Shown: one piece after another, positions 453-20,208 of the stretch | Position numbering within the stretch: position 1 is the stretch's first letter | Layout: each line of letters begins with the position of its first letter | IMG/VR virus record: IMGVR_UViG_3300044997_001177 | Span: 1 to 21,070 of that record | Origin: a virus | Strand: one strand, 5' to 3' | Length of the DNA stretch: 21,070 bases | The notes under the pieces: model-generated | Told to the model about the DNA's origin: nothing | The model's input: the letters and a program-made list of their open reading frames with translations, nothing else | Databases searched by the model: none | Translations under genes and position numbers: made by a program

Positions 453-647
453 ATGGATAGCGTTGTTTTAGAAAAGTGGAACGAAGTAAAGTCTTTGGTT
501 GAAGCTCTTGAGCACGATGTTACCAAGAATGCAAAGGGCGTTGCTGCAGCAGGTGTTCGCGCTCGTAAAGGTCTTAGAGAGCTTAAGACAAGGGCTGGAG
601 AACTTGTTAAGCTAACAATTGAATTAGATAAAAAATCTAAGGAGTGA
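453..647 (+). CDS. Histone H1-like Hc1 family protein
   Basis: A 64-residue, lysine/arginine-rich, probably all-helical protein. It follows the Hc1 (chlamydial histone H1-like) pattern: an N-terminal helix VKSLVEALEHDVTK, then KGVAAAGVRARKGLRELK, then AGELVKLTIEL. The spacing of the HD..K, the KG..AAG.R.R block and the following leucines matches what is known of Hc1-type proteins in Chlamydia and Bacteroidetes. Those proteins bind and compact DNA. Here the likely role is phage DNA condensation or interference with the host nucleoid, which is inference. The start has a strong AGGAG site 6 bases upstream. Its stop (645-647) sits 2 bases before the ATG of the next gene, so the two are probably co-translated. 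The long lysine/alanine-rich tail of chlamydial Hc1 is absent. Confidence 0.72.
   Translation: MDSVVLEKWNEVKSLVEALEHDVTKNAKGVAAAGVRARKGLRELKTRAGELVKLTIELDKKSKE
639..644 (+). promoter_or_regulatory. Ribosome binding site deciding the start of the next gene
   Basis: AAGGAG overlaps the end of the Hc1-like gene and lies 5 bases before the ATG at 650. This favours ATG 650 over the in-frame GTG at 644, which lies inside the site. Confidence 0.7.
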
Positions 648-649
648 GT

Positions 650-1030
650 ATGCCTAGACATCACAATCGGGCAATATTAAGCGAAATTACAGAAAAACAA
701 CTAGACCCAAATAAAGAGTATGTTGTTGGTAAACATGGCTTAACATTGTCGTTTAATGAAAAGAAAAAGGAAAGAAACGAAGGCAGTAAAGAGTCTATCG
801 TCGATATTCCTGAAGTCTCTATTAACGAACAAGCGCAAAAAGAAGAAAGCGTTAAGCTACCATTATCTTCCAAAGATGAAGACCAACAAGAAGCGCAAAC
901 GCTCGCAGACGTAGGATCGAAACAGCAAGCTTCTAATGAAGTTGAAGACCCAATCGAGTCCGAGCTAAAATTAGAAACTAGTGGTGAAAAAGACAATAAA
1001 AAGAAAAAGGTTAACAAACCAAAACTTTAA
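650..1030 (+). CDS. Hypothetical highly charged, mostly disordered protein
   Basis: A 126-residue protein, not recognised. Residues 1-40 (starting MPRHHNRAILSE, with LDPNKEYVVGKHGLTLSF) could form a small folded unit. The remainder is dominated by Glu, Lys, Ser, Gln and Asp and is probably disordered. It ends in a basic tail (KKKKVNKPKL). The ATG at 650 is chosen because AAGGAG lies 5 bases upstream. The gene follows the Hc1-like gene by 2 bases, so a joint role with that DNA-binding protein is possible, but only context supports it. It converges on the minus-strand gene, with 7 bases between the two stop codons and no visible terminator. Confidence 0.7.
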   Translation: MPRHHNRAILSEITEKQLDPNKEYVVGKHGLTLSFNEKKKERNEGSKESIVDIPEVSINEQAQKEESVKLPLSSKDEDQQEAQTLADVGSKQQASNEVEDPIESELKLETSGEKDNKKKKVNKPKL

Positions 1031-1037: not shown

Positions 1038-1301
1038 TTATTCTTGAATTAAAGTCTTTACTTTTTGGTAAATATTCTTTTCAATTTGGCAGATTCTCAT
1101 TCGCGTCAAGCTATAGATTTTTCCTATTTCTTGAAGCGTTTTAGGACCTACCTTTGAAGTTATTATTACGCAGTTTTTACCTTCAGCGTAACTAATCCAA
1201 TTTTTACAAGATTTTTTTTGACAATTTACGTTGTGTAATTCGTGTAAGTCAAAACATGTTTTTTCTACGTTACTTACTACTTGTAATTTTCTTTTTTTCA
1301 T
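1038..1301 (-). CDS. Small sigma-70 region 4-like helix-turn-helix protein with a Cys4 motif
   Basis: An 87-residue protein on the minus strand, against the direction of every other convincing gene here. Residues 54-84 (KTLQEIGKIYSLTRMRICQIEKNI...) match the sigma-70 region 4 helix-turn-helix pattern (TL.EIG...G.TR.R..QIE.....). In sigma factors that element reads the -35 box. Sigma regions 1-3 are absent. The N-terminal half has four cysteines (C16, C27, C32, C44), with H20 and H23 between the first two, which could bind zinc or a metal cluster. Small Cys-rich sigma-like proteins of this type are known from phages and some deltaproteobacteria. A role as transcription regulator or sigma/RNA polymerase modulator is inference. 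It diverges from the PhoH gene across about 68 bp that must hold its promoter. Confidence 0.72.
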   Translation of the reverse strand: MKKRKLQVVSNVEKTCFDLHELHNVNCQKKSCKNWISYAEGKNCVIITSKVGPKTLQEIGKIYSLTRMRICQIEKNIYQKVKTLIQE

Positions 1302-1351
1302 GTATCTAACGCAAACACTACAAAATCTATATGCATTTGTTTAAATTGCGT

Positions 1352-1357
1352 TATAAT
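1352..1357 (+). promoter_or_regulatory. Possible -10 box in the divergent promoter region
   Basis: TATAAT occurs 12 bases before the ATG at 1370, inside the 68-bp gap between the sigma-like gene and PhoH. No convincing -35 element lies 16-18 bases upstream. If used, the leader would be only a few bases long, and the earlier ATG at 1331 could not be the start. Chance is a real possibility in this AT-rich DNA. Confidence 0.3.
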
Positions 1358-1369
1358 TGTTTCTACGAT

Positions 1370-2785
1370 ATGAAAAAAACTTATGTTCTAGATACGAACG
1401 TTCTTCTTAGCGACCCAAACTCAATATTTTCTTTTGAGGATAACGATCTAATCATTCCCATGGCAGTGTTGGAAGAATTAGACCATCACAAAAGTCGTCT
1501 TGACGAAGTTGGTAAAAATGCGAGACAAACCTCTAAAACCTTAGATGAACTAAGGTTAAAAGGTAGCTTGGTAGATGGCGTATCGTTACAAAACGGTGCG
1601 ACGCTTCGCATTGTTTCCATTAATCCAAGTATTTTAACCAATCTTCCACCTGAGTTGCTGTCGTCTAAAGTAGACAACATGATTATTTCTTTCATGTTGC
1701 AATTGAAACAAGAAAATTTATTCAATCCAGCTGATAATCCCAGCCCTGCTATCCTCGTCACTAAAGACATTAACGTAAGAATAAAATGCGACTCTTTAGG
1801 CGTAAAGTGTGAAGAATACCTAAAGATGAGGGTAACTGCAGACGCTGAACACTTTTATCGAGGCGTTGCGGTAGTTGAAATTGAAGAACGTCGTGTAGAA
1901 CAATTCTACAGAGAGAACGAATTAACTCTTAAACCTGAAGAAATAAAGGATAATGCGCTTTATCCCAACCAAATTGTTGTTATAAAAAATACCGGACAAG
2001 ACGGTAAAACTACGAAATCAGCACTGTCAAAATGTGTAAGCTTTGATAAACCACTCGTTCCTATCGCCAAAATAGAACAAGCTTTTGGTTTAAAACCCCG
2101 TAATAAAGAACAATCTTTTTCTTTAGACTTATTGTTCGATGATAGCGTAAAACTTCTTACTTTGACAGGACCGTCTGGAACTGGTAAAACGTTGTTAGCA
2201 ATCGCCGCAGCGCTAGAACAACTCAAAGGTATAGGCAATTCTGATTACGCTAAGTATGAAAAACTTATTGTTACACGCCCTGTACAACCGGTTGGTAAAG
2301 ACATCGGATTTCTTCCTGGTACCCTTGAAGAAAAAATGGAACCTTGGATTTCTCCAATCAGAGACAATGTTAACTTTTTAATGAATAATAGAAAAGGGAA
2401 TAAGAAGAGAGCTTCAATCGATCCCGCTAAGTCCCGCATCGGCGACGAGTATTACTTGGCTCTCATGCAAGAAAAAGGTCTCATTGAGATCGAAGCTATC
2501 ACTTTCATAAGAGGTAGATCAATTCCGAATGCCTATATTATCATCGATGAAGCGCAAAATCTATCGATGCACGAACTAAAGACGATCACCACGCGAGTTG
2601 GGGATGGTACTAAACTGGTTCTAACTGGTGATATCGAACAGATCGATAATGTGCATGTAGATGCATTTACCAATGGTTTAACATACGCTGTTGAAAAATT
2701 TAAAGAACACTCTATAGCTGGTCACGTCAACCTCATAAAGGGTGAACGTTCTGAGTTAGCAACGTTGGCTTCCAAGATACTTTAA
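1370..2785 (+). CDS. phoH: PIN-PhoH family protein (ribonuclease/ATPase)
   Basis: A 471-residue two-domain protein. The N-terminal PIN nuclease domain starts at residue 1 with KKTYVLDTNVLL (D8 acidic), then LEELDHHK, VDNMI and VTKDINVRIK, giving the usual set of metal-binding acids. The C-terminal PhoH P-loop ATPase has Walker A GPSGTGKT near residue 267 and Walker B AYIIIDEAQN near 388, followed by the typical KLVLTGDIEQID sensor region. PIN-PhoH proteins (bacterial PhoH2/YlaK-like) are linked to ATP-dependent RNA unwinding and cleavage. Many phages carry only the ATPase half. ATG 1370 is chosen over ATG 1331 because the PIN fold begins directly after it and the 13 extra residues look unrelated. 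Its role in infection is not settled for the family. Confidence 0.88.
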   Translation: MKKTYVLDTNVLLSDPNSIFSFEDNDLIIPMAVLEELDHHKSRLDEVGKNARQTSKTLDELRLKGSLVDGVSLQNGATLRIVSINPSILTNLPPELLSSKVDNMIISFMLQLKQENLFNPADNPSPAILVTKDINVRIKCDSLGVKCEEYLKMRVTADAEHFYRGVAVVEIEERRVEQFYRENELTLKPEEIKDNALYPNQIVVIKNTGQDGKTTKSALSKCVSFDKPLVPIAKIEQAFGLKPRNKEQSFSLDLLFDDSVKLLTLTGPSGTGKTLLAIAAALEQLKGIGNSDYAKYEKLIVTRPVQPVGKDIGFLPGTLEEKMEPWISPIRDNVNFLMNNRKGNKKRASIDPAKSRIGDEYYLALMQEKGLIEIEAITFIRGRSIPNAYIIIDEAQNLSMHELKTITTRVGDGTKLVLTGDIEQIDNVHVDAFTNGLTYAVEKFKEHSIAGHVNLIKGERSELATLASKIL

Positions 2786-2826: not shown

Positions 2827-3903
2827 ATGAGTGGAATATTAGATAATAAATCTAGAATCATTGACGCTATCTTAACCACTGAGGGTCGGCGTCAATTGGC
2901 TGACGGTAATTTCGTAGTAAAGTTCGTTACTTTTTCAGATTTTCATGTCGTTTATCAAAAATCAGATGAAGGTCACGAAGACCCTACTAATAAAATTTAT
3001 TTAGAAAGCTTTAATGTTCCACACGATCAAATAATTTTTGAGAGTGACGACTCTGGAAATTTAGTACCATTTAAACAACACGAATTTTTAAACACAACTA
3101 CTTTAACTGGTTCGATTACTAGTAGCTTGTCTTGGACGAATTTTTATCAAGGTAAATTAAAAGAAAATACGAAAAAATATGGCATTAACTTCGCTGTAAC
3201 TAGTAGTTACGAAGAATCTGCAATTAAAGACATCAACTTCGCATCACAAATAGAAGGTATTCTAACTTCGTCGTTCGATAACTTTAAAAAAGTAACGATT
3301 ATTGGTTCTAAAGATACACTTTTTAACGATCAAGAGTTTGCTCTCAGCAATAACGAAGTAACGTTTGCGATATTGCCAGATGATCAAACTTTACAAATGC
3401 AGAATCCTTCGAACGTAAATTCGATTGACGCATTGTTTAATGACGAAAAATTGAGGAATGTAGATAACTTTAGATACCTTCCCCCCATTAAAAAAATCCA
3501 AGATTCCTTAGTCAATAAAACTAATATAGAAGAGCTTGAAAGAGCTGGATTGTTTTTAGGAAATTACCCGGCTTGGGGACCAATAGATAGATTGACGTAT
3601 CAAGATATTAAAAAGGAATTATCTAGATATGAAAATACTTCAAAGACCATATGTTTCGATCCAACCTCAAGAGACAACGAATTAGTCGCTCAAATGTTCG
3701 AAGTTACTCCAAGCGCAGTATCGAAACTTGACATTATCGATTACGGAAAGGTTAGTGATAATTCCAATAATCCTTTCGCGGATACACATCACGTATTTTT
3801 TGTCGGCAAGGTATTGATAGACGATACAGGCTCGACAAATTTTGTTCATCTTTTTACTTTAATCTTTGAGACCAACGAGGAAAACAATGTTCAGGCCTAT
3901 TGA
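2827..3903 (+). CDS. Phage virion structural protein, LDN/LT.GR N-terminal module
   Basis: A 358-residue protein. Its N-terminus (ILDNKSRIIDAILTTEGRRQ, then LADG, F and VVKF) is the same module that begins the protein at 11867, and I recognise it as a type seen at the start of virion proteins of large marine phages. The remainder (about residues 50-358) has no motif I can name. It opens the seven-gene structural block, so it is probably a neck, tail or baseplate component. The exact part is unknown. The start follows a 41-bp gap that shows only a weak AT-rich inverted repeat at 2801-2814. Its end overlaps the start of the next gene by 17 bases, which suggests translational coupling. Confidence 0.68.
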   Translation: MSGILDNKSRIIDAILTTEGRRQLADGNFVVKFVTFSDFHVVYQKSDEGHEDPTNKIYLESFNVPHDQIIFESDDSGNLVPFKQHEFLNTTTLTGSITSSLSWTNFYQGKLKENTKKYGINFAVTSSYEESAIKDINFASQIEGILTSSFDNFKKVTIIGSKDTLFNDQEFALSNNEVTFAILPDDQTLQMQNPSNVNSIDALFNDEKLRNVDNFRYLPPIKKIQDSLVNKTNIEELERAGLFLGNYPAWGPIDRLTYQDIKKELSRYENTSKTICFDPTSRDNELVAQMFEVTPSAVSKLDIIDYGKVSDNSNNPFADTHHVFFVGKVLIDDTGSTNFVHLFTLIFETNEENNVQAY

Positions 3904-6181
3904 ACAAAAAAAGTTTGAAACTTCGCTAGCTGTTTCTGACTATTTCGCTACCTTAATGGAATTAAGGAACAACAATTATCATGTAAGTTTAGACTTTAGT
4001 ATCAGTCGCTCTGAAGTTGAAGCCAAAAAACTAACGAAGATAAAAATAAAAGTAAGTAAAAAAAGTTATCAAGAAACGCGACAAGTTAGTGATAGTAATT
4101 TTTTAACAAAAAATTTAGAAGCTTTTAGAAAATTAAAAAGTAGAGAATCATCTAAAGTTTTAGAAGAGACTATTAGCTTAACAGACGCGCTTAAGTCCGC
4201 CAATAGAAAAAGACGAGTTTTAATAGAAGTAAAATCTCCTAATTTTGAAAAACAATTACAAAATTTTAGAAGTCCACCAACGGATTTTTTTACGTTGAGA
4301 GACAAAAATTTATCTATCATTAAAGATGTAAAGTTAGATCCTGCAGAAGCTATAATGCTTAGCGACATTATAATAGCTAATTCGAATATAACAACGCTAA
4401 AAAATCACTACTTGTTTAATTCGATAAATTCCCTAACCAAAGATAGGAAATACTATTCAGCTATAGAATCGAACTCGTCGCAGAATAAACTTTACATAAA
4501 CAAAATAATAAAAATACCAGAAAGATGCAAAAATGAACAGCTCGAGGTAACTTTTGAACTTTATACCGACAGCAACCCATACGCGTTAATCTTTGAAGAA
4601 AGAAAAAAGACGTTTAACATTCAAGATTTATTGTCGATAAAAAACTCTATAATAGAAAAACCTTCGATCAAAGAATCTTATGCTAAGATTGGTTTGTCAG
4701 GATTGTTAGTAAATCAATTAGATGAAAGGGCGTCAGGTATACAGGTCTTAAAAAAGACGATTAATTCTAATGATCAGGTATCACGATACACTACAATTTT
4801 TAAGAAAGAAAAATTCGTAAAAAACATAAATCAAAAAATAAACGAAGCCAATTCTTTATCAGAAATTCAAATTTATCGTTGCGTTGCCTATAATTCAGAT
4901 CCTGGTAGCAACGTTTTTTCTGCGTACAGAAACATCATAGTCGGAACCATTCCTTTTATCGATCCAACTATCATGTTAATTACAGACAATCAACAGCAAA
5001 AAGCTATTGAAATTACAGTAAAAAATCCTCCGCCTGAAGCTACAGAATTTCAAATCTTAAGAAGAAAAATATTAAAAGATAGTTTTGGAAGCTTTGAAGA
5101 CTATCAAGAAATATCTAGGTTTTTTACGACCAGACCAGCTCCACGAAAAATCTACGATGACAACGTAAAACACGGAGAATATTACGAGTATTCAATCAAG
5201 TATAAGTTGAATAGTGGCACGATTAAGCAGTCAGTTTCCAAGATCCATAAGTTTGTTGATTCATCAAACTTTAAATCTATCGTTGTAAATATCTCTGATT
5301 ATTCTTTGACTACGTCTAACTCAGGACCAGTAATTTCTTTTTCTATAAATTCTAATATTGTACAAGAAAAAAATAATCTAATTTTAGCAGCAATAAACCA
5401 GGCAGGAATTGGAGAAAGATTCCAAAAAGAATTTGAAAAAATAAAAGACAAATTCCAAGATATCGTTTTTTTCAAGGTAACAAGAACCAACCTGTCGGTG
5501 TCTCCTGCTATTCAAGAAGAATTTAAAGACGTTATATCGAGTGAGCAATTTATCGATAGTCCTGAAACGAGAAAAAATTCTGGTGTATCAGACATTAACT
5601 TAAATCACGATTATCTGTACGAAGTAAGGGGCTACTATAAAAGCCCCGCTTCTCTTATGAAGGATTTGGTAATAACCGTACCTTCACAAATTAAAGTTGG
5701 TACTGGTTCTTCCAAAAAAACATATAAATACAAGCCATATAAGTGGTTTCAACAAAAAGTTTTAAATTCAGGGACTCTAATGGCTGAAGATGCTGAAGGT
5801 AATTTATTACAACCGTCATTTCTTGAAGATGGCGATATCGGAATAGTTGCTAACACAAAGGTCGATAAATTAGAAGTGCTATTAGAAATTAAGTCGGCTT
5901 CCGCAAAAAGAGTCGACATAAAAACTATTTTTATTAGTTGGAAAATAGACGCTTCGATTGAAGAATACGATCACTTCGTTATTGTTAAAGAGTCTAATGG
6001 AAAAAGAAACGTATTAACTACGACTCAAAATTTAAGATATGCTGACGCAATATCACACGTCGATGTAGGAACAATTATTTACTATATAACGCCCGTTTAT
6101 AATGATTACTCGGTAGGTCCTACAATCAGAACAAACAGTATAGTTGTAAACCCAGAAGAACTAGATGGATCTATAAAATGA
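3887..6181 (+). CDS. Large phage structural protein with fibronectin-III-like segments
   Basis: A 764-residue protein. The first ~350 residues are charged, lysine-rich and unrecognised. Around 371-460 a beta-rich stretch (AIEITVKNPPPEATEFQILR, then YYEYSIKYKLNSG) has the rhythm of a fibronectin type III domain. A second such segment lies at about 680-764 (ISWKIDASIEEYDHFVIV, then IIYYITPVYNDYSVGP). Such domains are common on phage tail and surface proteins and often mediate weak binding. ATG 3887 is chosen because AGGA lies a few bases upstream. The in-frame TTG at 3866 has no such support. It overlaps the gene before it by 17 bases and the gene after it by 4 (ATGA). It is probably a tail or baseplate component. 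The domain call rests on pattern only. Confidence 0.62.
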   Translation: MFRPIEQKKFETSLAVSDYFATLMELRNNNYHVSLDFSISRSEVEAKKLTKIKIKVSKKSYQETRQVSDSNFLTKNLEAFRKLKSRESSKVLEETISLTDALKSANRKRRVLIEVKSPNFEKQLQNFRSPPTDFFTLRDKNLSIIKDVKLDPAEAIMLSDIIIANSNITTLKNHYLFNSINSLTKDRKYYSAIESNSSQNKLYINKIIKIPERCKNEQLEVTFELYTDSNPYALIFEERKKTFNIQDLLSIKNSIIEKPSIKESYAKIGLSGLLVNQLDERASGIQVLKKTINSNDQVSRYTTIFKKEKFVKNINQKINEANSLSEIQIYRCVAYNSDPGSNVFSAYRNIIVGTIPFIDPTIMLITDNQQQKAIEITVKNPPPEATEFQILRRKILKDSFGSFEDYQEISRFFTTRPAPRKIYDDNVKHGEYYEYSIKYKLNSGTIKQSVSKIHKFVDSSNFKSIVVNISDYSLTTSNSGPVISFSINSNIVQEKNNLILAAINQAGIGERFQKEFEKIKDKFQDIVFFKVTRTNLSVSPAIQEEFKDVISSEQFIDSPETRKNSGVSDINLNHDYLYEVRGYYKSPASLMKDLVITVPSQIKVGTGSSKKTYKYKPYKWFQQKVLNSGTLMAEDAEGNLLQPSFLEDGDIGIVANTKVDKLEVLLEIKSASAKRVDIKTIFISWKIDASIEEYDHFVIVKESNGKRNVLTTTQNLRYADAISHVDVGTIIYYITPVYNDYSVGPTIRTNSIVVNPEELDGSIK

Positions 6182-9100
6182 AGCGACAGATTCGAATAAC
6201 AAAGAGCAACGTAAGAGTCCCATCGCCAGTCGTGTTAAGAAATAATGCTACTGATATAAGAGACACTAGAGAAATTACAGAGACTAATAAAAAGACTTTT
6301 AAAGTAGAGCCTATTGTCAGGTTTTCAATATCTCAAGATAACTCCATTTTTTCTAATGGAAACACAGAACAATTTAACGCCTTAACAGGCATTGATGTTG
6401 ATAAGCCTGAAATAATAGCATTAACGGAATTTTTACCATGTTATTCCGAAGATTTGAAACTAAACAGAACAGGACAATTTTTTCAGGCAAAACAAGACGC
6501 ACTGTTGGTGTCTTGTGTAGATAGTCTATCTAACGTTTTTGAATCGATTAATAAACAAAAAGACATAGAAAACACGAGTCAAACAACTATAGCGAAATCT
6601 CTAGAGTCTAACAGAAGTTCTCTTTATGAATTTTGTGAAACTATAGAAAATAACATTAATTCTTTCATGGCCGGTGTCGAAGACACAAAAAGATCTTTTT
6701 ACTTTAAAAATAATTTTTCATATTTAATTCCTTTTACAATAAATGTTCCATACGACTTAAGAAAAGTTTCATCGTTAGATGAGATGACTAACGTACCTCA
6801 AGATGTTTGGAAAAACTGGACCACGACCAAAACGTGGCTTCAAATGTGTTTAGAATTTAAAGAAGCGCTTAAAAACGGTACTTCATCAAACGATAGTTTA
6901 TTCGTTATAAACCCTTTAGATGGTGTATCGGTTAACAATTCTATAAACGCTTATTCCTTGAACGAACCATCGAATAGAAAAAACAAATTAGGTTTTAATG
7001 AAAACCAAATACAAACTCTATCGGTTTTTAATGCTACTCTTGACGTTTCAAATGAAGATTTATTTAATTCCTTAAAAATTCAACTTAAAAAATTATTTTC
7101 AACGCGCGAATATTCGGTGCTCAACGTCCCGATGCGTGAATTAGTGGGCGACGACACTACTGAAAAATCAAAATCAATAGCGCGACTTAGCTATTTGATA
7201 ACTCGTGAATTAAATTACTCAAGCGAGCTCAGAAAACTCAGTTTGTCTAATTCTCCTGTTGTTGTAAACTTCAATTACCCTACTGAGAACTTAAACAAAG
7301 AAAACAACATAATATTTTGGAATTTCGTAGCAGGAAAAACCGGAAAAGACATAACAGAAATTCCAAAGAATCCAGATTCTTTAAATTCTTTAACCGCGCT
7401 TGCCCAAAGAGTGGAAACGTTAGCTAATAAAACGTATGAAATATTAACTTTCGAAAAAACGTATATAAACGACGATATTTCATCAAGCGACGGAACTTCT
7501 AGAAACGCTGTACTAACGCCAGGGTTAACTTACTACATCGACGGCGCGCTCACGTCAGAAAATTTCTTTTCTCCAACTTCTGCTAAGTCTCTAAGAGAAA
7601 ATGTTCGTACATCTCTTGATTCGTTGAAGGACATATTTTCTTCTTATGATGGTAATTCTCAATTTTTGTTCGATAATTTTATAAACGCGAGAGTAAAAAA
7701 CGACATTATTTATACAAAGCCGCCACAAAGCATTAGTTACTACAGTAACGCTAGTCTTATGTCTTTATCATTGATTAAGCAAAATCAATTAGAAGAAACT
7801 TTAGAAACTTTAGTAACCGACGAACAACTAGCTACTGACAATAACGCTAGTTCGCAACTAGAACTAAGCTATAAAAATATAAATAAAATAATAAGAAATC
7901 CGCTACACTTAATTAGATTTTTAGAAAATCAATTATTAACGGCAGATTTTTTACCTAGATTTAATCAACCGGCAGATATAAAAAACTTAAAAGATATTAG
8001 TCATCTTATCATCTCGTTTGCCTTGAAAAACCTAGATAAATCTTACAACGACAACAATCTTTTAAGTTTAATCTATATGTACGTCCTGATAAGAACAGAC
8101 GCGTTATTAAAAAATAATCAAGGAGTCAGTACGAATAACAATAAACTCAATCACGTAACTGATAAGATAAAAAACTATTTTATTGATTATTTCTCTAACA
8201 ACAAAGGAACATTGTCATTTCCCATAGAAGTTGATTATGTATTAAGCCCGGACACTCCTGGTAATTTAACGTCGCTAAATAAAATAGCAAAAATATTAGC
8301 TTCTATAGCTAAAGAATTTAACAAAGTAGATCCAGACAACTTTGAAGACTCAATTACAATTAACCCTTTTAAAACAGGCGTCGATATTTCAAAGAGTTTT
8401 TATTCTGGCGTTCAAAAAGAATCAGTGATGGTGCTTATATTCTTTTTGTGCTGTTTAATGATTAATGAAGTTAATTTTCAGTCTATAGATAACTTAATTT
8501 TCTCTAACGGAAACCATTTCTTTAGCGTAATAAAAGATAGAGAGCCTATTGAAAAAAAAGAATACTTCAATAATGAAGATACAGTAACAGTTGTAGGTGG
8601 TAGGGAATTTAATCTTTATAGATACGACGACATCATTCTAGAAGCTGAAGGTAGATTATCAAAAGAAATAGTTAGTCTAAAAAGAATGTCTGCTTGGTTC
8701 GTTTGTTATCTCACCATGTTCGAAAAAAAGCTGACTAACTTCATAAATCAACTTGAAAACACAGAAGGATTTTTTTCCAACGTTTGGGCACCAATATCTT
8801 TTATTATCAATGATGACGCCGTCGCGACGAAGATGCTAAACGTAGAGCAACTGAATTTGATTAAAAGCAAACTTGCATACATGAAAACCAGGTTGTCTAG
8901 TAAGTATGATTCTGGTTTAAAAAACTTGACCCCTTATTTCGTCTCATTAAAAAACAAAGATCAACAAGCGCTAAATTCTATGTTGCCGCTTGAAGATTTA
9001 CACATAGCGTCTTGGAACTTTTTACTTAAGGAATATCTAAAAAAACAAGAATTTTTAAGCAATAGAGCTAATAATCTAAAAATATTGTCGGTTGGAATCC

Positions 9101-9942
9101 CGCAAAAATTATATCAAAAATTACAAAAACCTACGAACGCGACCACGTTGAAAGATTCTATTGGCACTCAAAACATAGTTTCTATTAACGTTTATCTTGT
9201 GGATCATTTGCGCCCAACATTGATTCACAAGCCTAAAAAATTCATATTTGACTTAAGTAAATTTCCAATAAGAATCTTAAATTATTATCTCGACGGCATT
9301 GGCGCTCTACAAAAAATAAAATCAGATAGGGAAGGCTTAGAAAGCTTAGAATTGATAAACTATCTACCGTTCTTTAATTTGCAAAATTTTCAAAATATTT
9401 CTGAAATAAAAGCAGAAGATGCAGCGGATCTAATGGATTCAAATAATAATGAATTTTCTAAATATTTTAAAGTTCTAAACGAAGAGCAGATTAGACAGCT
9501 AAGAGACAACCATATGAACAGTTTGTTCTTTGAAGAGTACTTAAAATTTACAAGCGGCGTATCGTTAGACGAACATTCGTTTTATAACTTTGAAAAGATG
9601 GCGAAAGCATTCGACCCGTCGATGCTTGAAATACCGGCAGTCACTGATGGATCCATCGAATATTTCAAAAACACTATTTTTGTCGGTACTGACGAAATTA
9701 AAAGATCGCTAATAATCCCGAAAAAATTTGACAGAGTTTTCCATGTCTCTTTCGACCCTGAGGATTTCGAGATAGATGAAGTTAATACGAAAACTTTCGA
9801 TGGTGTTAACGTCATAAATTATTATGTAAACCAAGGAACGATAGTAAAAATTTCTGAAACCGAAGGTTACAAACGTGCAATAACACCAAACTCAGACGTA
9901 GAATTTAATAGTTACTATGTAGAATTAGAAGTAATAGCATAA
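6178..9942 (+). CDS. Very large structural protein of unknown fold
   Basis: At 1254 residues this is the largest protein in the window. No known domain was recognised. It is rich in Asn, Ser, Lys and Leu, with many predicted helical stretches. A strongly hydrophobic segment at about 750-768 (VMVLIFFLCCLMINEV) is unusual for an otherwise soluble virion protein. The C-terminal ~100 residues are more beta-like. It starts in an ATGA overlap with the preceding gene and ends 10 bases before the next, so it is translated as part of the structural block. Size and position suggest a baseplate, neck or tail-associated protein. A tape-measure role is not supported, because the long repeated coiled-coil/transmembrane character expected of one is lacking. 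Confidence 0.6.
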   Translation: MKRQIRITKSNVRVPSPVVLRNNATDIRDTREITETNKKTFKVEPIVRFSISQDNSIFSNGNTEQFNALTGIDVDKPEIIALTEFLPCYSEDLKLNRTGQFFQAKQDALLVSCVDSLSNVFESINKQKDIENTSQTTIAKSLESNRSSLYEFCETIENNINSFMAGVEDTKRSFYFKNNFSYLIPFTINVPYDLRKVSSLDEMTNVPQDVWKNWTTTKTWLQMCLEFKEALKNGTSSNDSLFVINPLDGVSVNNSINAYSLNEPSNRKNKLGFNENQIQTLSVFNATLDVSNEDLFNSLKIQLKKLFSTREYSVLNVPMRELVGDDTTEKSKSIARLSYLITRELNYSSELRKLSLSNSPVVVNFNYPTENLNKENNIIFWNFVAGKTGKDITEIPKNPDSLNSLTALAQRVETLANKTYEILTFEKTYINDDISSSDGTSRNAVLTPGLTYYIDGALTSENFFSPTSAKSLRENVRTSLDSLKDIFSSYDGNSQFLFDNFINARVKNDIIYTKPPQSISYYSNASLMSLSLIKQNQLEETLETLVTDEQLATDNNASSQLELSYKNINKIIRNPLHLIRFLENQLLTADFLPRFNQPADIKNLKDISHLIISFALKNLDKSYNDNNLLSLIYMYVLIRTDALLKNNQGVSTNNNKLNHVTDKIKNYFIDYFSNNKGTLSFPIEVDYVLSPDTPGNLTSLNKIAKILASIAKEFNKVDPDNFEDSITINPFKTGVDISKSFYSGVQKESVMVLIFFLCCLMINEVNFQSIDNLIFSNGNHFFSVIKDREPIEKKEYFNNEDTVTVVGGREFNLYRYDDIILEAEGRLSKEIVSLKRMSAWFVCYLTMFEKKLTNFINQLENTEGFFSNVWAPISFIINDDAVATKMLNVEQLNLIKSKLAYMKTRLSSKYDSGLKNLTPYFVSLKNKDQQALNSMLPLEDLHIASWNFLLKEYLKKQEFLSNRANNLKILSVGIPQKLYQKLQKPTNATTLKDSIGTQNIVSINVYLVDHLRPTLIHKPKKFIFDLSKFPIRILNYYLDGIGALQKIKSDREGLESLELINYLPFFNLQNFQNISEIKAEDAADLMDSNNNEFSKYFKVLNEEQIRQLRDNHMNSLFFEEYLKFTSGVSLDEHSFYNFEKMAKAFDPSMLEIPAVTDGSIEYFKNTIFVGTDEIKRSLIIPKKFDRVFHVSFDPEDFEIDEVNTKTFDGVNVINYYVNQGTIVKISETEGYKRAITPNSDVEFNSYYVELEVIA

Positions 9943-9952
9943 TTTAATTGAA

Positions 9953-11803
9953 ATGTCAGTACGTTCAAATCCATCCAAGCCCGTTTATTTCGTCAATGTT
10001 CCAAAGTTGTTCGAAAACAACGCTTTAGAAAATTTTAGCTGTAAATTTGTCTATAATTTTTATACTACGGACGAAAGAACGCAAGAAAACCAAAAGATAC
10101 CTGACATATATAAAAAATCGACTATATCGAAAAACGATATAAACCTGACAACATTTTCTTTGAGAGTTCCCAGGTACATCGAACTATCTTGGAAAACGAG
10201 CAATATTATTAATTCGATTGTCGTCAAAAACCCTGAATTACAAAAAAATTATTCAAAAATTTTTACTCAAGACAATATCGTAAACTCTAATTTTTTACCA
10301 TATAACTTCGAAAGTTACAGCGCGCTAGAAAACGCCGTCGAAGATATAAACAAAAATGTAGCGGGACAACTACTGACATCAACAGGTATAAGTCAAGCGA
10401 CGGTTTTAGAAAATTTTATTTCTGGCTTGATGAAAGATTACAAAGAAGTACCAGAAAAACCCGCCGTTCAACAAATTAGAGATCAAATAAAAACCGCTAT
10501 AGACTCTTTAGAAAGTTTTGTCGATAAGCCCGACGCACTCTTGGGATATAAGTTTTACGATGATAAAAATAAAAAAATCGAAACCAGCTTCGATTCGATG
10601 GCCGATAGAAATGTAAAAATTAACGTACAATTAAGCAATTCAATACTTGGCGATGTGTTTAATCTAACGACGTTGCCAACGCAAACATTAAATCAAATAA
10701 ACAGTTATAGCTTAAAAACCAACACTACTGAAGACCTGTTTATCCAACCAGTTTCGATAGGCGAACGAACTAACGAATTTCCAGATGCTACTAACTCTAT
10801 CCAAATCATTGGTTACGTTATCGACAGGTATAAATTTGAAGATGAGTCTTACGTTAAAGACAAAACTTTTTTTATAGATGACGTTAAGACAACAACAATT
10901 CTCGATGTTAACGTAAAATACGGTGGAATTTATTGCTATGCGATTAGATCGATAGCAAAAATTGAAATTCCTTCAGTACTAGAAAATAGCGACACTATAA
11001 ACAAGTGTATGTATTATTGCGCAGGAAAGCCCATTACGAAAACTATTACTTGTGAAGAAGACGTTTCACCCCCTCATCCCGTTGAGTTAAATTTTAATTG
11101 GGAATATAGGACCAGAGAGTTTTATGTTACTTGGCAAATGCCATTTAACGCGCAACGAGACATCAAACAATTTCAAATCTTTAGAAGAAGGTCGATTCAC
11201 GAACCATTCGAGTTGTTGGAACAACAGTGTTTTGATTTTTCTGATGTCAAACAAACTACGGGCGAGATTATAGATGGTAACAATTCAGCGATGACGAAAG
11301 AAGACGCGTCATTCGTCAAATATTTTAAACTACCAACCTACAGTTATCTTGACAAAGAATTTAAAATAAATTTCGAAACTTTAACAGCCTCTAAATATAT
11401 TTACGCTATTGTGTCCATAGACGCGCATGGATACATATCAAATTATAGCGCGCAGTATGAAATAAGTTTTGATTTTTACAAGAATCGAATAACCAAAAAA
11501 TTAATAAGCGTTTCTGGTGCACCAAGACCCTATCCTAACCTATATTTGAACGCGGATCTTTTTAAAGACGTGATACAAGTATCAGGATTATCTTCACAAA
11601 AACTAAAGATATATTTTATGCCTGAATATTTTAAGTTAAAGTATAACTCAGGCAAGATAGAGAAAATGGTTACTACAAAGCAAGATGGTGAACAAGGCGG
11701 ATACTATAAATTGCAGTTTATAAACGTCCAAAACCAAAAGTCAGATCAGCTAAGAATCAATATAGACGATCCGAATTTACTTACCAGAGTTGAGCGGCAA
11801 TAA
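9953..11803 (+). CDS. Phage structural protein with a fibronectin-III-like segment
   Basis: A 616-residue protein. Residues 1-370 are unrecognised. From about 372 to 530 a beta-rich region (HPVELNFNWEYRTREFYVTW, then IKQFQIFRRRS, later YIYAIVSIDAHGYISNYS) resembles a fibronectin type III domain and parallels the ILRRKI segment of the protein at 3887. The two may be functionally or evolutionarily related. The C-terminal ~100 residues (from ITKKLISVSGAPRPYPNLYL) form a separate unrecognised unit. It follows the 1254-residue gene by 10 bases and is followed by a 63-bp gap with a palindrome and a good ribosome site. Probable tail or baseplate component, by context. Confidence 0.62.
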   Translation: MSVRSNPSKPVYFVNVPKLFENNALENFSCKFVYNFYTTDERTQENQKIPDIYKKSTISKNDINLTTFSLRVPRYIELSWKTSNIINSIVVKNPELQKNYSKIFTQDNIVNSNFLPYNFESYSALENAVEDINKNVAGQLLTSTGISQATVLENFISGLMKDYKEVPEKPAVQQIRDQIKTAIDSLESFVDKPDALLGYKFYDDKNKKIETSFDSMADRNVKINVQLSNSILGDVFNLTTLPTQTLNQINSYSLKTNTTEDLFIQPVSIGERTNEFPDATNSIQIIGYVIDRYKFEDESYVKDKTFFIDDVKTTTILDVNVKYGGIYCYAIRSIAKIEIPSVLENSDTINKCMYYCAGKPITKTITCEEDVSPPHPVELNFNWEYRTREFYVTWQMPFNAQRDIKQFQIFRRRSIHEPFELLEQQCFDFSDVKQTTGEIIDGNNSAMTKEDASFVKYFKLPTYSYLDKEFKINFETLTASKYIYAIVSIDAHGYISNYSAQYEISFDFYKNRITKKLISVSGAPRPYPNLYLNADLFKDVIQVSGLSSQKLKIYFMPEYFKLKYNSGKIEKMVTTKQDGEQGGYYKLQFINVQNQKSDQLRINIDDPNLLTRVERQ

Positions 11804-11806
11804 TTA

Positions 11807-11857
11807 ATGGCTGGTTTTTTTGGTTTCACATACGTATGTAATAACGAAGAATCATAG
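11807..11857 (+). other. Possible 16-codon leader ORF
   Basis: An ATG 4 bases after the preceding stop opens a 16-codon frame (MAGFFGFTYVCNNEES) that ends inside the ribosome binding site of the gene at 11867. The placement would suit translational coupling, but no ribosome site of its own is visible and the frame is short enough to be chance. Confidence 0.2.
11828..11839. promoter_or_regulatory. Perfect 12-bp palindrome in an intergenic gap
   Basis: ACATACGTATGT is a perfect inverted repeat, located 28 bases before the ATG at 11867 in the longest gap within the structural block (63 bp). Its centre and spacing would suit a dimeric repressor site, but no second copy was found in the window. 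Confidence 0.3.
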
Positions 11858-11860
11858 GAG
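11856..11860 (+). promoter_or_regulatory. Ribosome binding site
   Basis: AGGAG lies 6 bases before the ATG at 11867. It is much stronger than the sites of most neighbouring structural genes, suggesting this protein is made in larger amounts. Confidence 0.7.
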
Positions 11861-11866
11861 TCACAG

Positions 11867-12583
11867 ATGGGTTATTTAGATAATTCGACGAATAACATTA
11901 TATTAGACGCTGTACTTACAGACTTCGGTCGCGAAGCCCTTGCGCGCAATAACGGATCCTTCAATATCATAAAGTTTTCTTTAGGTGACGATGAAGTCAA
12001 TTATGGAATTATCACCAAGTACGGAAGAACTATTGGACGAGAAAAAATAGAAAAAAATACTCCCGTTTTTGAAGCGTTGACCAATCAAAACCTAGCCCTT
12101 AAGCACAAATTGATTTCGATACCAACACCATTGGTATATTTACCGCAGCTTGTTCTTACATCGCCTAGTACGACGGTGTCTTTGATTCAAGGTAGGAATA
12201 CTAGCGTCGTTGTAACTGAATCGATTGCGTCTTCAGATTCTGCGACAGAATTAGACGCTAATATTGCCGATTCAGATTTTGATCTTTATTATCCTTCGTT
12301 GTTTTTACGCGTCGGAAGTCTAAACAATGCGCCAGGACAAGTATCACAAGATGCTTTAAGAACAGCTCAAACTGTAATCACAGCGAGTAATTTGACGAGT
12401 GCTAGCAGAACAGCGACTTTTGTCCTATTCGCAAATTCAATGTCGTCAAATACTTTTTCCACCTATGGTAGACAAGTTACTTCTGGTGGCAATACGGTTT
12501 ATCAAATTTCTACGTCTATAAAAATTGTTGGACAAAATTCTGGATTAGCGCTTAGTATTCCTGTAACGATTAGTCAATCTTGA
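11867..12583 (+). CDS. Phage virion structural protein, LDN/LT.GR N-terminal module
   Basis: A 238-residue protein. It begins YLDNSTNNIILDAVLTDFGR, then EALARNNGSFNIIKFSLGDD. This is the family of short structural proteins I recognise from T4-related and other large marine phages, and the same module opens the gene at 2827. The middle and C-terminal parts are rich in Ser, Thr and Ala and look beta-stranded (TATFVLFANSMSSNTFSTYG, then VTSGGNTVYQISTSIKIVG), as in many tail or decoration proteins. A strong AGGAG precedes the start, which may mean high copy number. The exact position in the virion is unknown. Confidence 0.7.
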   Translation: MGYLDNSTNNIILDAVLTDFGREALARNNGSFNIIKFSLGDDEVNYGIITKYGRTIGREKIEKNTPVFEALTNQNLALKHKLISIPTPLVYLPQLVLTSPSTTVSLIQGRNTSVVVTESIASSDSATELDANIADSDFDLYYPSLFLRVGSLNNAPGQVSQDALRTAQTVITASNLTSASRTATFVLFANSMSSNTFSTYGRQVTSGGNTVYQISTSIKIVGQNSGLALSIPVTISQS

Positions 12584-12604
12584 TAAAAGAAAGAACATTA
12601 CCTC

Positions 12605-13843
12605 ATGGCAACATTTCGCGAATTAGCATCCACTGACAAAAAGACTGCTAAGTCATTTTTAAATCAATTAATTGACGTATTGCAAGAAGACATTAGCGGA
12701 TCTACGTCTAGAAGAAAATATCAACACTTCGTCACAGGCGGTGTCGGTCCTGGTGTAACTTCTTCTTTGTTTCAGACTGTATATGATCAAGACTTTACCT
12801 TGCAGACCGCTAACCCGATATTTGATATTACGGTAGGTTTAGCACCTGATTATGATGGTGGTATTTTAGACACTGCAAAAACAGGTACTGACGCTACTGG
12901 TAAGTTGTTGTTCGCGAGTAGTTCTCTAATGGCTCGTGAAAAGGGCGAAATTTATCGACAATTTGCACAAGCGTTATTGGGAGACGGAAATCAGGAATTC
13001 AAAATACCTCTTGAGAATCAAGCTGGCGTAAATCAATCGACAGTAGATGCTGCTCTCTTCGTCGCGTTTAAAAGACTATTCGCAAGAGATCAAATTAAGC
13101 GTGAAACTTTTGCAATGAGATTTTATCAAACTGCGTCATTTGTCGACCGCAACGCTGATGGCTCTTACACAACGGGTGATGCGGGCACGAATCTTGATAA
13201 GACTACATTGTCGGGGTCTACGATCTATACAGATATCAATTCGGCAGATCAAAGATTCGTTACTTACGGTGGTCAATATGGCACGATAGTAGACTCTTCA
13301 AATACTTCTCTTCAAGTAGGGCTAATGTTCTACGACGCTGGCGTTGCCGTGTTCGATTTATCAAAAATCACATCGGGAAGTCAATTGATGTCGGGGACGA
13401 TCGATGCGATGTCCGAGGTAGGAACGATGACTTTAGGAGCTAACGACACACAATCGCAGTTCATTGCAAAATTTATACCTGACTTTATAATGTCTGGTAG
13501 CGTTGACAACATTATTGATCACGTCTGTTCTACAAGATTTCAATCTGGATCATTAACTGCTATTACATTCCAAAACATCACAAATATCAATAGCACGTTG
13601 ATATATTGCAGAGCTCCCGCGGATGAATTCAACTATTCTTCGAATCCTACTTTCGTTGATCAAAATAAGAGAATAGTTGTAATCGACGAAGGACAGGAAG
13701 GTGTACAAGACACCTTTACTTACATTACGACCGTTGGTCTTTACGATTCCAACAATAACTTGTTAGCAGTCGCTAAGTTGAGTCGACCAGTAGAAAAGAG
13801 CCCAGAAAGAGATTTAACATTTAGGGTTAGATTAGACTTTTGA
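12605..13843 (+). CDS. Phage structural protein, tail/baseplate-like
   Basis: A 412-residue protein. The N-terminal ~80 residues (LASTDKKTAKSFLNQLIDVL, then RRKYQHFVTGGVGPGVTSSL, then YDQDFTLQTANPIFD) are of a type I recognise from virion proteins of large marine phages. EFNYSSNPTF at about 341-350 resembles a motif found in baseplate and tail proteins. Its last 44 residues (from DTFTYITTVG to the end) align without gaps to the last 44 of the next protein, with 15 identities by eye, including the terminal DF. The two genes are 24 bases apart and probably encode partners or duplicated components. The Shine-Dalgarno is weak. The family-level structural call is good; the exact part is unknown. 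Confidence 0.7.
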   Translation: MATFRELASTDKKTAKSFLNQLIDVLQEDISGSTSRRKYQHFVTGGVGPGVTSSLFQTVYDQDFTLQTANPIFDITVGLAPDYDGGILDTAKTGTDATGKLLFASSSLMAREKGEIYRQFAQALLGDGNQEFKIPLENQAGVNQSTVDAALFVAFKRLFARDQIKRETFAMRFYQTASFVDRNADGSYTTGDAGTNLDKTTLSGSTIYTDINSADQRFVTYGGQYGTIVDSSNTSLQVGLMFYDAGVAVFDLSKITSGSQLMSGTIDAMSEVGTMTLGANDTQSQFIAKFIPDFIMSGSVDNIIDHVCSTRFQSGSLTAITFQNITNINSTLIYCRAPADEFNYSSNPTFVDQNKRIVVIDEGQEGVQDTFTYITTVGLYDSNNNLLAVAKLSRPVEKSPERDLTFRVRLDF

Positions 13844-13867
13844 TATGGTTTTTATTGGAATGATAAA

Positions 13868-16309
13868 ATGGCAATATTCCCAGTCACAAATGACGATGTA
13901 GAATTTTTTACCGTTTTAGTAAATCCAAAAAGATCTTACGTTTCTTCTTCGACAGGTGGTATAACAGGATCTTTACGCCTGTTTGCCCGTGGCTCAAATA
14001 TCGAAAAGGAAATTCTGCCATTAGCGAATTTTTCTGCCTCTTATTCAAACGATGAAAACCTAGAGTCTTTGAGAATAAGCGTAGTTAACAAAGCAAAATC
14101 TCTACAAGTTAGTGGTTCATTTTCTGGATCGCTACAAACGTATTTAACCAATGTCAATGATCAATCTTCGTCCGCAAAAAAACAAAAAGAGATAGTAGTC
14201 AATCGATTTATTCCGTCTCCTTCTTTTACGTCTAATACCATTAGAAAATGGAACGTAAAAGATATATTGGTACCATACTATAGCAATGAATATCCAACAG
14301 CCGGTTGGGGCTATACGAATTATAGCTCTATTAACTTTTTTACCGCGACAGGAATCGTTACGTCTTCGGTTCTGTTATACCCATCGATCGAAAGCCCTAC
14401 GCTACCAGAACATATGGGTTACGTTTCTGGTACGTACGCCCTAGCTGGTCCATTTTCTTTTGATCTTCGAATAAATCCTCGATATAAACAAGATTCTATA
14501 GATTCTGGTCACTTCAAAGCCGGTACGATATTTCATTTGTCTTCGAGCTATGCGTTGTCTTTAGTGACTGGTTCTAAAAAGGACGAGAACGGTTTACCAA
14601 TAGGATTTAGACTACAGTTGCAATTGAGCCATAGTGCTGACGTCCCTCCTTCTCGGGCAATACCAGGTTCATATCCTAATGATTTAATATTTTTAAGCGA
14701 AGACAATAGTTTGTCTTACAATAACTGGCACAGAGTAGTTGTACGTTGGGGAACAAACACGATCAACGAAGGTACGGGATCTTTCAACGTAGATGGATTC
14801 GATGTAGGTACTTTCGTAGTTCCTTCAGGCACCATAATGCCAGTTACATATACAAGCAAAGATGATCCCCGGGTTCTATGCGTCGGTAATTATTACGAAG
14901 GTAATAATTTCGATTCGTCGAGTCAATTGTTGTTTTTTTCCGATGTGGTAGCAGAAAGAGAAGGCTTGGAGGAATTATTGAACACAGCAGGAATGTACGA
15001 TTATCCTGCTAGCTATGCGTTTAATCATCCTCTAAAAGCAGAAGTACACGAATTAACAATTAGACGAAACTACATGTCGGATAAAGACATATTGCAAACA
15101 TCGGGAAGCGGTTTGGCGTCGACCAATACGTCCTCGATAGCGTTTTATTCTCCACCGTTCTTCACCAAGTCGTCACCGACCAGGAAATATATCGGAGGTC
15201 ATGGTGGCATATTAATAACGCCATTTCAAGAAGTCGATGGTACGACCGATGATCCGTTTAATGTTGGCATGGCTTTCTCTGTCGCAGGTCATTATATTAA
15301 CTTAGAAAACTTTACCAAAGATTTTGCTAACATGGTCTATCCGCGACTGCATCATCTCACGGGTGCTGCAATAGACTACACAACTGCCGCCGAACCGGCT
15401 AGCAACATTCTTTACAGAAGTCCTTTCACAAAGAAAAGAAATCTAACCATACTTCCTTGCGACCATGGTGGGTTTTATCCAAACTACGATTGGATATCGT
15501 CTGAAGACTCCACAAAGTATTTAGATCAATTTGGACGAGTAGATAAAAGCGTAATTAATTTAGATAATTTATTAAGCACTTCTTCATTGCTTATAAGCAA
15601 AACTCACGACCCGTCAGGTTCGACGTACGTCGATGAGTTAATTGGATTTTCTCCCGAAAGCCCAGGATTACCACCAGGACCAGCTTTTTCTAAATATTCA
15701 GCGACGTTTGGTAGCGTATCAGGTTCACCATTAACAATCTTCCAAAGGTTGAAGGATCCCTCTTCAGACCAAGTAACATTTTTTGACATAAGTAACTTGT
15801 TTTATGGTAGCAGAATTCTACCTAAATCGTTCACCCTTACCGATTCATCTTTAAGCGGTTCAGGTGGAAGAATTTCAATAACAATAAAAGACGATGGCGC
15901 AGGCAATCTTTACAGAGCAGATTCTTTAACGCCGCATGCTAAAACTAACTCGATAGGTAATATCTTTTACGATGAGGGAGTCGTAGTAATAAAGAGTCCC
16001 CACTTATATTTCTTCGGTAAAGAAGGATATGAGATGTCTTTTAAAGGTGAACAGAGATTGCATTCTTCGAAATACGAAATTTTAGCGCCATCAGGTCTAT
16101 TAAATTCTTCTTCTAATTCTTCATACGCCTTGGTCCAAAATTCAATCAGCGCGTCGAACGAGCCTAACGATACCGAGACGTTCGTATACATATCTAACAT
16201 TAATTTTCACGACGAAAATTTAAACGTCGTCGCGAAGGCCCAATTAGCCCAACCAGCGTTAAAACGTGAAAGCGAAAAGATACTATTTAAGATAGCTTTC
16301 GATTTTTGA
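13868..16309 (+). CDS. Large structural protein with a LamG/concanavalin-like domain
   Basis: An 813-residue protein. Residues 1-180 include a conserved-looking start (FPVTNDDVEFFTVLVNPKRS). About 189-407 shows the pattern of a LamG/concanavalin A-like jelly roll: ALAGPFSFDLRINP, NNWHRVVVRWG near 286, FNVDGFDVGTF, then VHELTIRRNYMSDKDI. Such domains bind sugars or pack beta sheets in tail and fibre proteins. The C-terminal 44 residues repeat the module that ends the preceding protein. It is separated from the gp4-like gene by a single base. A baseplate or receptor-facing role is likely, but no catalytic residues for glycan cleavage were identified. Confidence 0.66.
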   Translation: MAIFPVTNDDVEFFTVLVNPKRSYVSSSTGGITGSLRLFARGSNIEKEILPLANFSASYSNDENLESLRISVVNKAKSLQVSGSFSGSLQTYLTNVNDQSSSAKKQKEIVVNRFIPSPSFTSNTIRKWNVKDILVPYYSNEYPTAGWGYTNYSSINFFTATGIVTSSVLLYPSIESPTLPEHMGYVSGTYALAGPFSFDLRINPRYKQDSIDSGHFKAGTIFHLSSSYALSLVTGSKKDENGLPIGFRLQLQLSHSADVPPSRAIPGSYPNDLIFLSEDNSLSYNNWHRVVVRWGTNTINEGTGSFNVDGFDVGTFVVPSGTIMPVTYTSKDDPRVLCVGNYYEGNNFDSSSQLLFFSDVVAEREGLEELLNTAGMYDYPASYAFNHPLKAEVHELTIRRNYMSDKDILQTSGSGLASTNTSSIAFYSPPFFTKSSPTRKYIGGHGGILITPFQEVDGTTDDPFNVGMAFSVAGHYINLENFTKDFANMVYPRLHHLTGAAIDYTTAAEPASNILYRSPFTKKRNLTILPCDHGGFYPNYDWISSEDSTKYLDQFGRVDKSVINLDNLLSTSSLLISKTHDPSGSTYVDELIGFSPESPGLPPGPAFSKYSATFGSVSGSPLTIFQRLKDPSSDQVTFFDISNLFYGSRILPKSFTLTDSSLSGSGGRISITIKDDGAGNLYRADSLTPHAKTNSIGNIFYDEGVVVIKSPHLYFFGKEGYEMSFKGEQRLHSSKYEILAPSGLLNSSSNSSYALVQNSISASNEPNDTETFVYISNINFHDENLNVVAKAQLAQPALKRESEKILFKIAFDF

Positions 16310-19350: not shown

Positions 19351-19372
19351 AGATAGATGTATCATATTATTG

Positions 19373-20044: not shown

Positions 20045-20208
20045 ACAGATATAGTCGTTATAATGAGAAAATGTAATAACTGTGGTGAACAACTTGCAAA
20101 AAATGCAGGATTACATCTATTAAGATTCTGGGAATCAGAAATAATAAACGAAAATTTTTCTGAGATTTTGACTAATAAGTTATGGGAAAAAAGATAAAAA
20201 TAAAGGTA
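19964..20208 (+). other. Sequence interrupting the SbcD coding region
   Basis: Joining GTA at 19961-19963 to the codons from 20209 would restore SbcD coding in frame (LDFREV-KKPWIAYSGS) and remove 245 bases. The GTA before each junction (19961-19963 and 20206-20208) leaves the edges uncertain by a few bases. The segment has stops in all three plus frames and carries the endonuclease remnant at 20063-20197. CAGATATAGTCG at 20045-20056 matches 10 of 12 bases of the group I intron S element (AAGATATAGTCC), but no proper P7 partner or P3-P6 core was found, and the part before it is short for a complete intron. It is either a decayed homing element or a shrunken intron. Confidence 0.6.
20063..20197 (+). 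pseudogene. Remnant of a Vsr/DUF559-type (homing) endonuclease
   Basis: A 44-codon frame. It begins MRKCNNCGEQL, a CX2C knuckle like those at the N-terminus of many homing endonucleases. It ends AGLHLLRFWESEI followed by INENFSEILTNKL, the C-terminal signature (G..VLRFWE.EI..N....I) of Vsr/DUF559/EDxHD-type nucleases. The central catalytic part, normally about 80-100 residues with the acidic and histidine residues, is missing, so it looks internally deleted. It lies inside the interruption of SbcD. Its end overlaps the ATG at 20182 of the next coding part. No Shine-Dalgarno is visible. It is probably inactive. Confidence 0.55.

Follow-up and report, generated by a model that had tools for sequence, protein, structure and literature searches.

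What role does a phage have for a protein that holds one recognisable part of a sigma factor, encoded alone and antisense to its neighbours? The question is raised by an 87-residue protein, here called mini-sigma, whose gene lies in a 21,070-nt stretch of viral DNA (the window). Late transcription in T4 is the textbook case of host polymerase capture, achieved by gp55, which is region 2-like, together with gp33, which does not resemble sigma in sequence. A comparison has been missing, namely phages in which a gp55-like protein is accompanied by a true stand-alone sigma region 4, and the mini-sigma family supplies it.

The mini-sigma gene and its family

The gene and its recognisable parts are:

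1038-1301, minus strand: mini-sigma, a stand-alone sigma region 4 protein; 87-aa open reading frame (ORF) with an ATG start
1056-1157, minus strand: Sigma70_r4 (region 4.2) match, residues 49-82 (PF04545, E 5.4e-08; also profile A2 against solved sigma chains)
1077-1106, minus strand: recognition-helix signature T-R-M-R-I-C-Q-I-E-K, residues 66-75, with C71 (R-M-R-[IV]-C-Q-[IM]-E-K in 116/116 distinct proteins)
1170-1256, minus strand: cysteine module C16-X10-C27-X4-C32-X2-W35-X7-N43-C44, a probable metal site (four cysteines in 116/116)

The mini-sigma ORF is a real gene. A chance ORF was ruled out by the conservation of the family and of the locus, by dN/dS and by shuffling: an ORF of at least 87 aa appeared in 6 of 2000 order-1 shuffles of its 340-nt gap, and comparison with five close relatives gave dN values of 0.14-0.20 and dS values of 0.54-1.29. 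Overlapping scans of viral contigs returned 24, 78, 206 and 236 stretches encoding a mini-sigma relative. With at most 80 loci kept per scan, 169 viral loci were fetched (some contigs twice, the window excluded), which yielded 116 distinct mini-sigma proteins, every one with a five-cysteine pattern. Across the alignment of these 116, the five cysteines, L56, G60, R67, M68, R69, Q72, E74 and K75 are invariant. An alignment of 72 proteins showed C16, C27, C32, N43, C44, T55, L56, G60, R67, M68, R69, C71, Q72, I73, E74 and K75 to be invariant.

Searches of 50,697 phage records with the window's mini-sigma and with one distant family member returned no relative, and a search with a second distant member produced just two hits, both weak (E 0.7) and confined to the HTH; no full-length relative was found in these records. 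Among the matches listed from the bacterial and archaeal collection there were only two, both complete sigma factors. A partial cellular sigma gene was therefore rejected as an explanation, since both bacterial-genome matches listed are full-length sigma factors of the ordinary kind. Seven named phage records, searched by alignment and without a positive control, yielded no mini-sigma relative; two of these phages, both PhoH relatives, have Sigma70_r4 matches over the cut-off in longer frames of 201-399 aa. In the T4 record (L181), a 312-aa open frame carries a sub-threshold Sigma70_r4 match at 168763-168873 on the minus strand (5.4e-5, 20.9 bits).

The preliminary description of this DNA had proposed a free-standing sigma region 4 element, and this is borne out: in the 87-aa protein Sigma70_r4 scores 32.7 bits, above the Pfam cut-off of 24.1. 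The alignment runs over profile positions 16-49 of 50, and so takes in region 4.2 but misses the opening part of region 4. Sigma70_r4 is the sole Pfam match in the 87 residues and region 2 is absent, so mini-sigma is not a complete sigma-70 factor. The hits in NCBIfam and PHROGs were all weak and fell mostly within this same portion of sigma factors. A profile built from 72 family members (A2) retrieved 42 solved sigma sequences at E values of 0.001 or below (best 4.1e-07), in region 4.2 only. Mini-sigma thus encodes region 4.2 and no other recognisable sigma part, preceded by an invariant four-cysteine module.

Structure prediction gave a mixed answer on the proposed sigma-4 fold. With 23 sequences AlphaFold gave a poor model (pLDDT 64); a second, from 72 sequences, reached a pLDDT of 84.7 and a pTM of 0.54, with predicted helices at residues 16-22, 45-50, 56-62 and 67-86. 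Foldseek searches with the model against the PDB and BFVD returned nothing significant. Fifteen of the 18 PDB rows came from sigma or holoenzyme entries, with alignments of 31-35 columns, but no E value fell below 1.2, and VIA-align, run on 22 chains, never reached a Z of 2. The HTH is therefore supported by sequence, and for the whole domain these searches found no close solved relative.

The recognition helix is the most constant part of the HTH, with the signature R-M-R-[IV]-C-Q-[IM]-E-K in 116 of 116 distinct proteins. In E. coli sigma70 we take the -35-reading residues to be R584, E585, R586, R588 and Q589, with E585 presumably equivalent to M68 and R588 to C71. On this basis, both arginines flanking M68 and the glutamine are kept, and the glutamate has become methionine and the last arginine cysteine in 116/116, so that the family does not have the canonical -35-reading set.

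The C-X10-C-X4-C-X11-C segment of the preliminary description is present as given (C16-X10-C27-X4-C32-X11-C44), in the N-terminal half; a fifth cysteine, C71, lies inside the recognition helix and had been missed. Of the 116 proteins, 115 have a first spacing of 10 and 104 a third spacing of 11. N43 occurs in 112; at position 35, W predominates (100 proteins), followed by Y (11), F (3) and H (2). The family thus possesses four invariant residues of the kind that act as ligands in zinc-binding domains, and these permit a putative metal site, which we consider probable.

Large relatives and late promoters

The window is a 21-kb fragment with no gp55 gene in it, and the wider gene content was read from 33 contigs of at least 90 kb among the matches listed, 17 searched first and 16 later. 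Mini-sigma exceeds the Sigma70_r4 cut-off in all 33 records and is the sole such match in 32. The remaining one, the record of L257, has a second match over the cut-off in a 237-aa frame beside mini-sigma (G030:C1:132927-133064, minus strand).

T4 gp55 as a query produced a weak match in one of the first 17 records (7.4e-4). With the gp55-like protein found in this way as the query, one match per record was obtained in 17/17, at 1.3e-58 or better, and in 14 of the 16 later records at 4.1e-53 or better. The two others, which may both be fragments, gave a weak match (G021, 0.0018) and none (G027), so that a strong gp55-like late-sigma match is present in 31/33; using this tally instead of 17/17 did not move our estimate of any reading. 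Seven of eight gp55-like proteins tested matched PHROG_234, 'late sigma transcription factor' (best 6.2e-08). Most large relatives therefore encode, in the same phage, a gp55-like region 2 sigma. In sequence, the link to T4 gp55 itself is weak. A profile of the gp55-like proteins with the T4 row removed (A5) found no solved structure; aligned to T4 gp55 by hhalign it was colinear over 92 columns, with a P of only 0.065. A PDB match to gp55 obtained with profile A3 was discarded as circular, since T4 gp55 is itself a row of A3.

Other T4 parts were sought in the first 17 records. The gp33 profile (PHROG_254) matched in 0/17 and finds T4 gp33 at 1.6e-33. The T4-type sliding clamp gp45 (PF02916) matched in 0/17, T4 itself being positive; a divergent clamp is possible. 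The RNA polymerase beta subunit (PF00562) was likewise found in 0/17, which speaks against a phage-encoded multi-subunit RNA polymerase in these records and makes the host polymerase the likely engine. Mini-sigma itself had no match to PHROG_254 among its PHROG hits, and hhalign of A2 against T4 gp33 aligned six columns only.

A promoter to go with the gp55-like protein was suggested by word counts upstream of genes, from which the pattern NATA[CGT]TTA was derived. This late-promoter-like motif stands just upstream of genes in three genomes, G011, G014 and G002 (L138-L171). Non-coding sites at most 90 nt before a gene account for 15/19 occurrences in G002, 10/23 in G014 and 24/85 in G011, counted on the data from which the motif came and with gene calls that were simple ORF choices. 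For permuted patterns the mean was 0.8 in G002, 0.6 in G014 and 10.7 in G011, and the maximum 6, 3 and 22 respectively, so the enrichment is least clear in G011. When the 49 sites were pooled, no position in the 60 nt upstream exceeded 0.2 bits, and these promoters therefore seem to have no -35 element. A -10-only late promoter is thus apparent in three genomes, by a motif taken from the same data as the count. The suggestion that mini-sigma is a -35 reader is weakened from two sides, by the two positions changed in 116/116 and by the 49 sites lacking a -35 signal; the family-wide loss of two -35-reading residues would fit promoters of this kind.

The simplest reading is that mini-sigma fills the place of gp33: a gp55-like protein is present in most large relatives, gp33 is undetected and a stand-alone region 4 is present in all. 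We tentatively propose, at somewhat less than an even chance, that in these phages the late sigma comes in two pieces (is 'split') and that mini-sigma is its sigma-4 half, with a T4 gp33-like role. The cysteines would bind one metal ion, probably zinc, replacing the missing first helices of region 4 and giving a compact domain. On the host RNA polymerase, mini-sigma would then take the place of host sigma region 4 and clamp the beta subunit at its flap tip, as T4 gp33 does; the gp55-like protein would read the -10-only late promoter NATA[CGT]TTA, and the changed recognition helix would touch upstream DNA with little or altered sequence preference, or else bind the divergent control region that mini-sigma shares with PhoH. 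Being antisense and separately promoted, mini-sigma could also be timed differently from the operon headed by PhoH. What we infer from these genomes is thus the flap binding, the metal site and the pairing with the gp55-like protein.

Because the large records are related phages that share core genes, the co-occurrence of the two proteins is not independent evidence of a partnership; with some records perhaps fragments, the counts show that mini-sigma and the gp55-like protein are core genes, not that they meet. Two distant phages, Flavobacterium phage immuto and Microcystis phage Mel-JY01, encode a gp55-like protein and have no Sigma70_r4 match, so a gp55-like sigma can do without mini-sigma. 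The failure to find a T4-type clamp in the 17 records also tells against the proposal, as do the two large records lacking a strong gp55-like match, the weak sequence link to T4 gp55 and the Foldseek result. The gp55-like proteins (for example L123:1276-2193) have a conserved C-terminal extension of about 100 aa that T4 gp55 does not have. In the three tested, it matched no Pfam family over the cut-off and no sigma-4, and hhalign of A3 against A2 revealed no hidden sigma-4 match in the gp55-like proteins. This extension could do the job proposed for mini-sigma.

The antisense locus and competing explanations

Around mini-sigma the window contains:

453-647, plus strand: Hc1 (histone H1-like) small protein (PF07432, 4.4e-11; 115/117 distinct loci)
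644-1030, plus strand: charged ORF, tail-to-tail neighbour, ending 7 nt before the mini-sigma stop
1302-1369, no strand: divergent intergenic region between mini-sigma and PhoH; its right end depends on the PhoH start at 1370
1337-1344, plus strand: TTGTTTAA element within the divergent region
1352-1359, plus strand: TATAATTG, 10 nt upstream of the PhoH start, a near match to NATA[CGT]TTA
1370-2785, plus strand: PIN-PhoH gene, head-to-head neighbour (PhoH 2.5e-46, PIN_4 6.7e-31)

The PhoH start at 1370 was picked by likeness to relatives, the first listed ATG being at 1331. The charged ORF matches no Pfam family, and the Hc1-like protein is a candidate DNA-compacting protein beside the locus. 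Mini-sigma had been described as opposite to all other genes, and this holds: the long ORFs of the window and all ORFs with a clear family match are on the other strand, and the remaining minus-strand ORFs overlap plus-strand ones. The arrangement is conserved, as PhoH stands head-to-head with mini-sigma on the opposite strand at 117 of 117 distinct loci. The Hc1-like gene lies on the other side, also on the opposite strand, at 115 (at two loci it was not found). A cruder, ORF-based count over the first 79 loci, the window included, found both neighbours opposite in 70; we attribute the remaining nine to spurious small ORFs selected by this cruder approach.

Further along the plus strand, the ORF at 2827-3903 had no PHROG match at E values up to 1, nor did six large ORFs queried from 3866-16309 at 0.001. 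An SbcD-like gene at 19370-20044 (PHROG_100, 6e-18) ends early, and 20182-21069 reads by eye as the C-terminal part of an SbcD-like protein followed by an SbcC-like start (PHROG_77, 1.6e-8). Together, again as read by eye, these are possibly an interrupted, perhaps fused gp47/gp46.

The divergent region is short and carries a recurrent element. Of 81 distinct gaps, 57 measure 50-79 nt, and TGT[AT][CT]A, a pattern chosen after inspecting the gaps, occurs in 59/81 against 9.1 expected by shuffling. The longer form TTGT[AT][CT]AA stands upstream of few genes elsewhere (0 in G014, 1 in G002, 8 in G011). It was rejected as a genome-wide promoter element because its occurrences in the three genomes are mostly coding, and for the same reason we treat it as local. 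A classic sigma70 promoter for mini-sigma was also rejected: positions 900-1500 hold just two weak matches, a number not above that in shuffles, and neither is in the divergent gap. No terminator was found in the same interval around mini-sigma.

These findings bear on the main rival explanation, a local DNA-binding regulator, which we regard as unlikely; below it we rank a flap decoy and a redox switch. Here a repurposed sigma-4 HTH, as repressor or activator, would bind the conserved element in its own divergent control region beside PhoH, thereby autoregulating mini-sigma and timing the PhoH-tail operon. The head-to-head lock with PhoH at all 117 loci, the excess of the element in the divergent regions with its rarity upstream of other genes, and the nearly invariant recognition helix are all consistent with such a regulator. 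Yet 22 of the 81 divergent regions do not contain the element and the recognition helix is unchanged, and the element may merely belong to one of the two promoters. Stand-alone monomeric sigma-4 HTH domains are, moreover, usually weak DNA binders without polymerase, which counts against a local regulator.

A decoy for host takeover, which the preliminary description had also raised, seems to us distinctly improbable. Acting outside any late holoenzyme, it would occupy the beta flap and strip host sigma region 4 from -35 promoters, shutting down host and early phage genes. Region 4 homology combined with the -35-reading positions changed to M68 and C71 in 116/116 would suit this role, as would the position on the strand opposite to the neighbours, and the available text of PMC7892883 and PMC7824862 offers AsiA and gp33 as precedents for attack at the beta flap/region 4 site. 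However, a decoy would have no need of an invariant DNA-facing helix, and the flap interaction is predicted only; flap binding followed by gp55-dependent transcription would at first look alike. No anti-sigma family, such as one of AsiA type, is among the Pfam, PHROG and NCBIfam matches of mini-sigma, and nothing specific speaks for a decoy. What stands of the earlier interpretation overall is the stand-alone sigma region 4 with its conserved cysteine segment; its -35 reader has lost ground, its decoy has gained no specific support, and for its redox or metal switch the four invariant cysteines permit a metal site. The two weightiest facts lay beyond what the preliminary description had to go on: the conservation of the antisense, head-to-head arrangement with PhoH, and the gp55-like late sigma encoded by most large relatives.

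A redox or metal-sensing switch, in which the cysteines, possibly including C71, would hold zinc or an iron-sulphur cluster and toggle DNA or polymerase binding, is very unlikely in our view: the five invariant cysteines, one of them within the recognition helix, and the leading structure and profile matches, which include sigma region 4 chains solved in complex with WhiB, point towards it, WhiB proteins being four-cysteine iron-sulphur proteins that act on sigma region 4, but the near-fixed spacings, N43 (112/116) and the aromatic residue at position 35 (114/116) suit a structural site equally. We return to the proposal that mini-sigma is the region 4 half of a split late sigma, and compare it with what is known.

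Comparison with known systems

The T4 review describes gp55 and gp33 as a 'split-sigma', asks, in its available text, why sigma is split and why no fused form is known, and finds in gp33 no discernible sequence similarity to sigma (PMC2988020). T4 gp55 reads a -10-like element at late promoters without a -35 element (PMC2988020; PMC7892883, available passages). The accessible part of PMC7892883 has gp33 clamping the flap tip helix 'as sigmaR4' and calls it not structurally related to region 4; that of PMC7824862 describes gp33 as an HTH protein.

In the literature covered on stand-alone or minimal sigma region 4, zinc and phage split sigma (subscription journals and bioRxiv outside the scope), no description of the mini-sigma family was found. 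As far as the available texts go, we found no prior description of the cysteine module, the altered helix or the fixed antisense locus; single-HTH phage sigmas are already known (PMC7824862). The same source, in its accessible part, reports that group 2 jumbo phages, which are without a polymerase of their own, have a single-HTH 'minimal sigma factor', and proposes it as a beta flap binder. Mini-sigma resembles it as a stand-alone sigma HTH in large phages; the comparison is by description only, and unlike mini-sigma it comes, in the accessible text, with no mention of a cysteine module, PhoH synteny or an antisense position, in phages said to have gp33. A 2025 paper (PMC12619734, available portion) presents a lineage of large aquatic phages that encode a sigma factor and PhoH but no polymerase.

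With cellular sigma-70 region 4 (PF04545), mini-sigma shares the HTH of region 4.2, including R67, R69, Q72 and E74, and differs in the cysteine module that replaces the first part and in M and C at the equivalents of E585 and R588. Bacillus SigO and RsoA place sigma regions 2 and 4 on separate proteins, as we propose here; they differ in being cellular, in having no known cysteine module and in another gene arrangement. P2 Ogr and P4 Delta are small phage four-cysteine zinc-finger activators that contact the host polymerase, with a different cysteine spacing from mini-sigma and no known sigma HTH.

The closest parallel is T4 gp33/gp55. As in T4, a small separate phage protein accompanies a gp55-like sigma in most large relatives, with a probable host polymerase and -10-only late promoters; unlike T4 gp33, mini-sigma is a region 4 homologue by sequence and bears a four-cysteine module. 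If our proposal is true, the origin and timing of split sigma control become directly testable, and the family provides a compact module, perhaps dependent on metal, that targets the polymerase flap. We also advance, as an unlikely speculation, that a sigma truly in two parts has been retained by a large and mostly uncultured clade related to T4. Its region 4 half would be a real sigma homologue, with a metal or iron-sulphur module to stabilise it and perhaps to switch it, and T4 gp33 would be an unrelated later replacement. Should gp33 be such a replacement, comparing it with mini-sigma could answer why the 'split sigma' of T4 exists.
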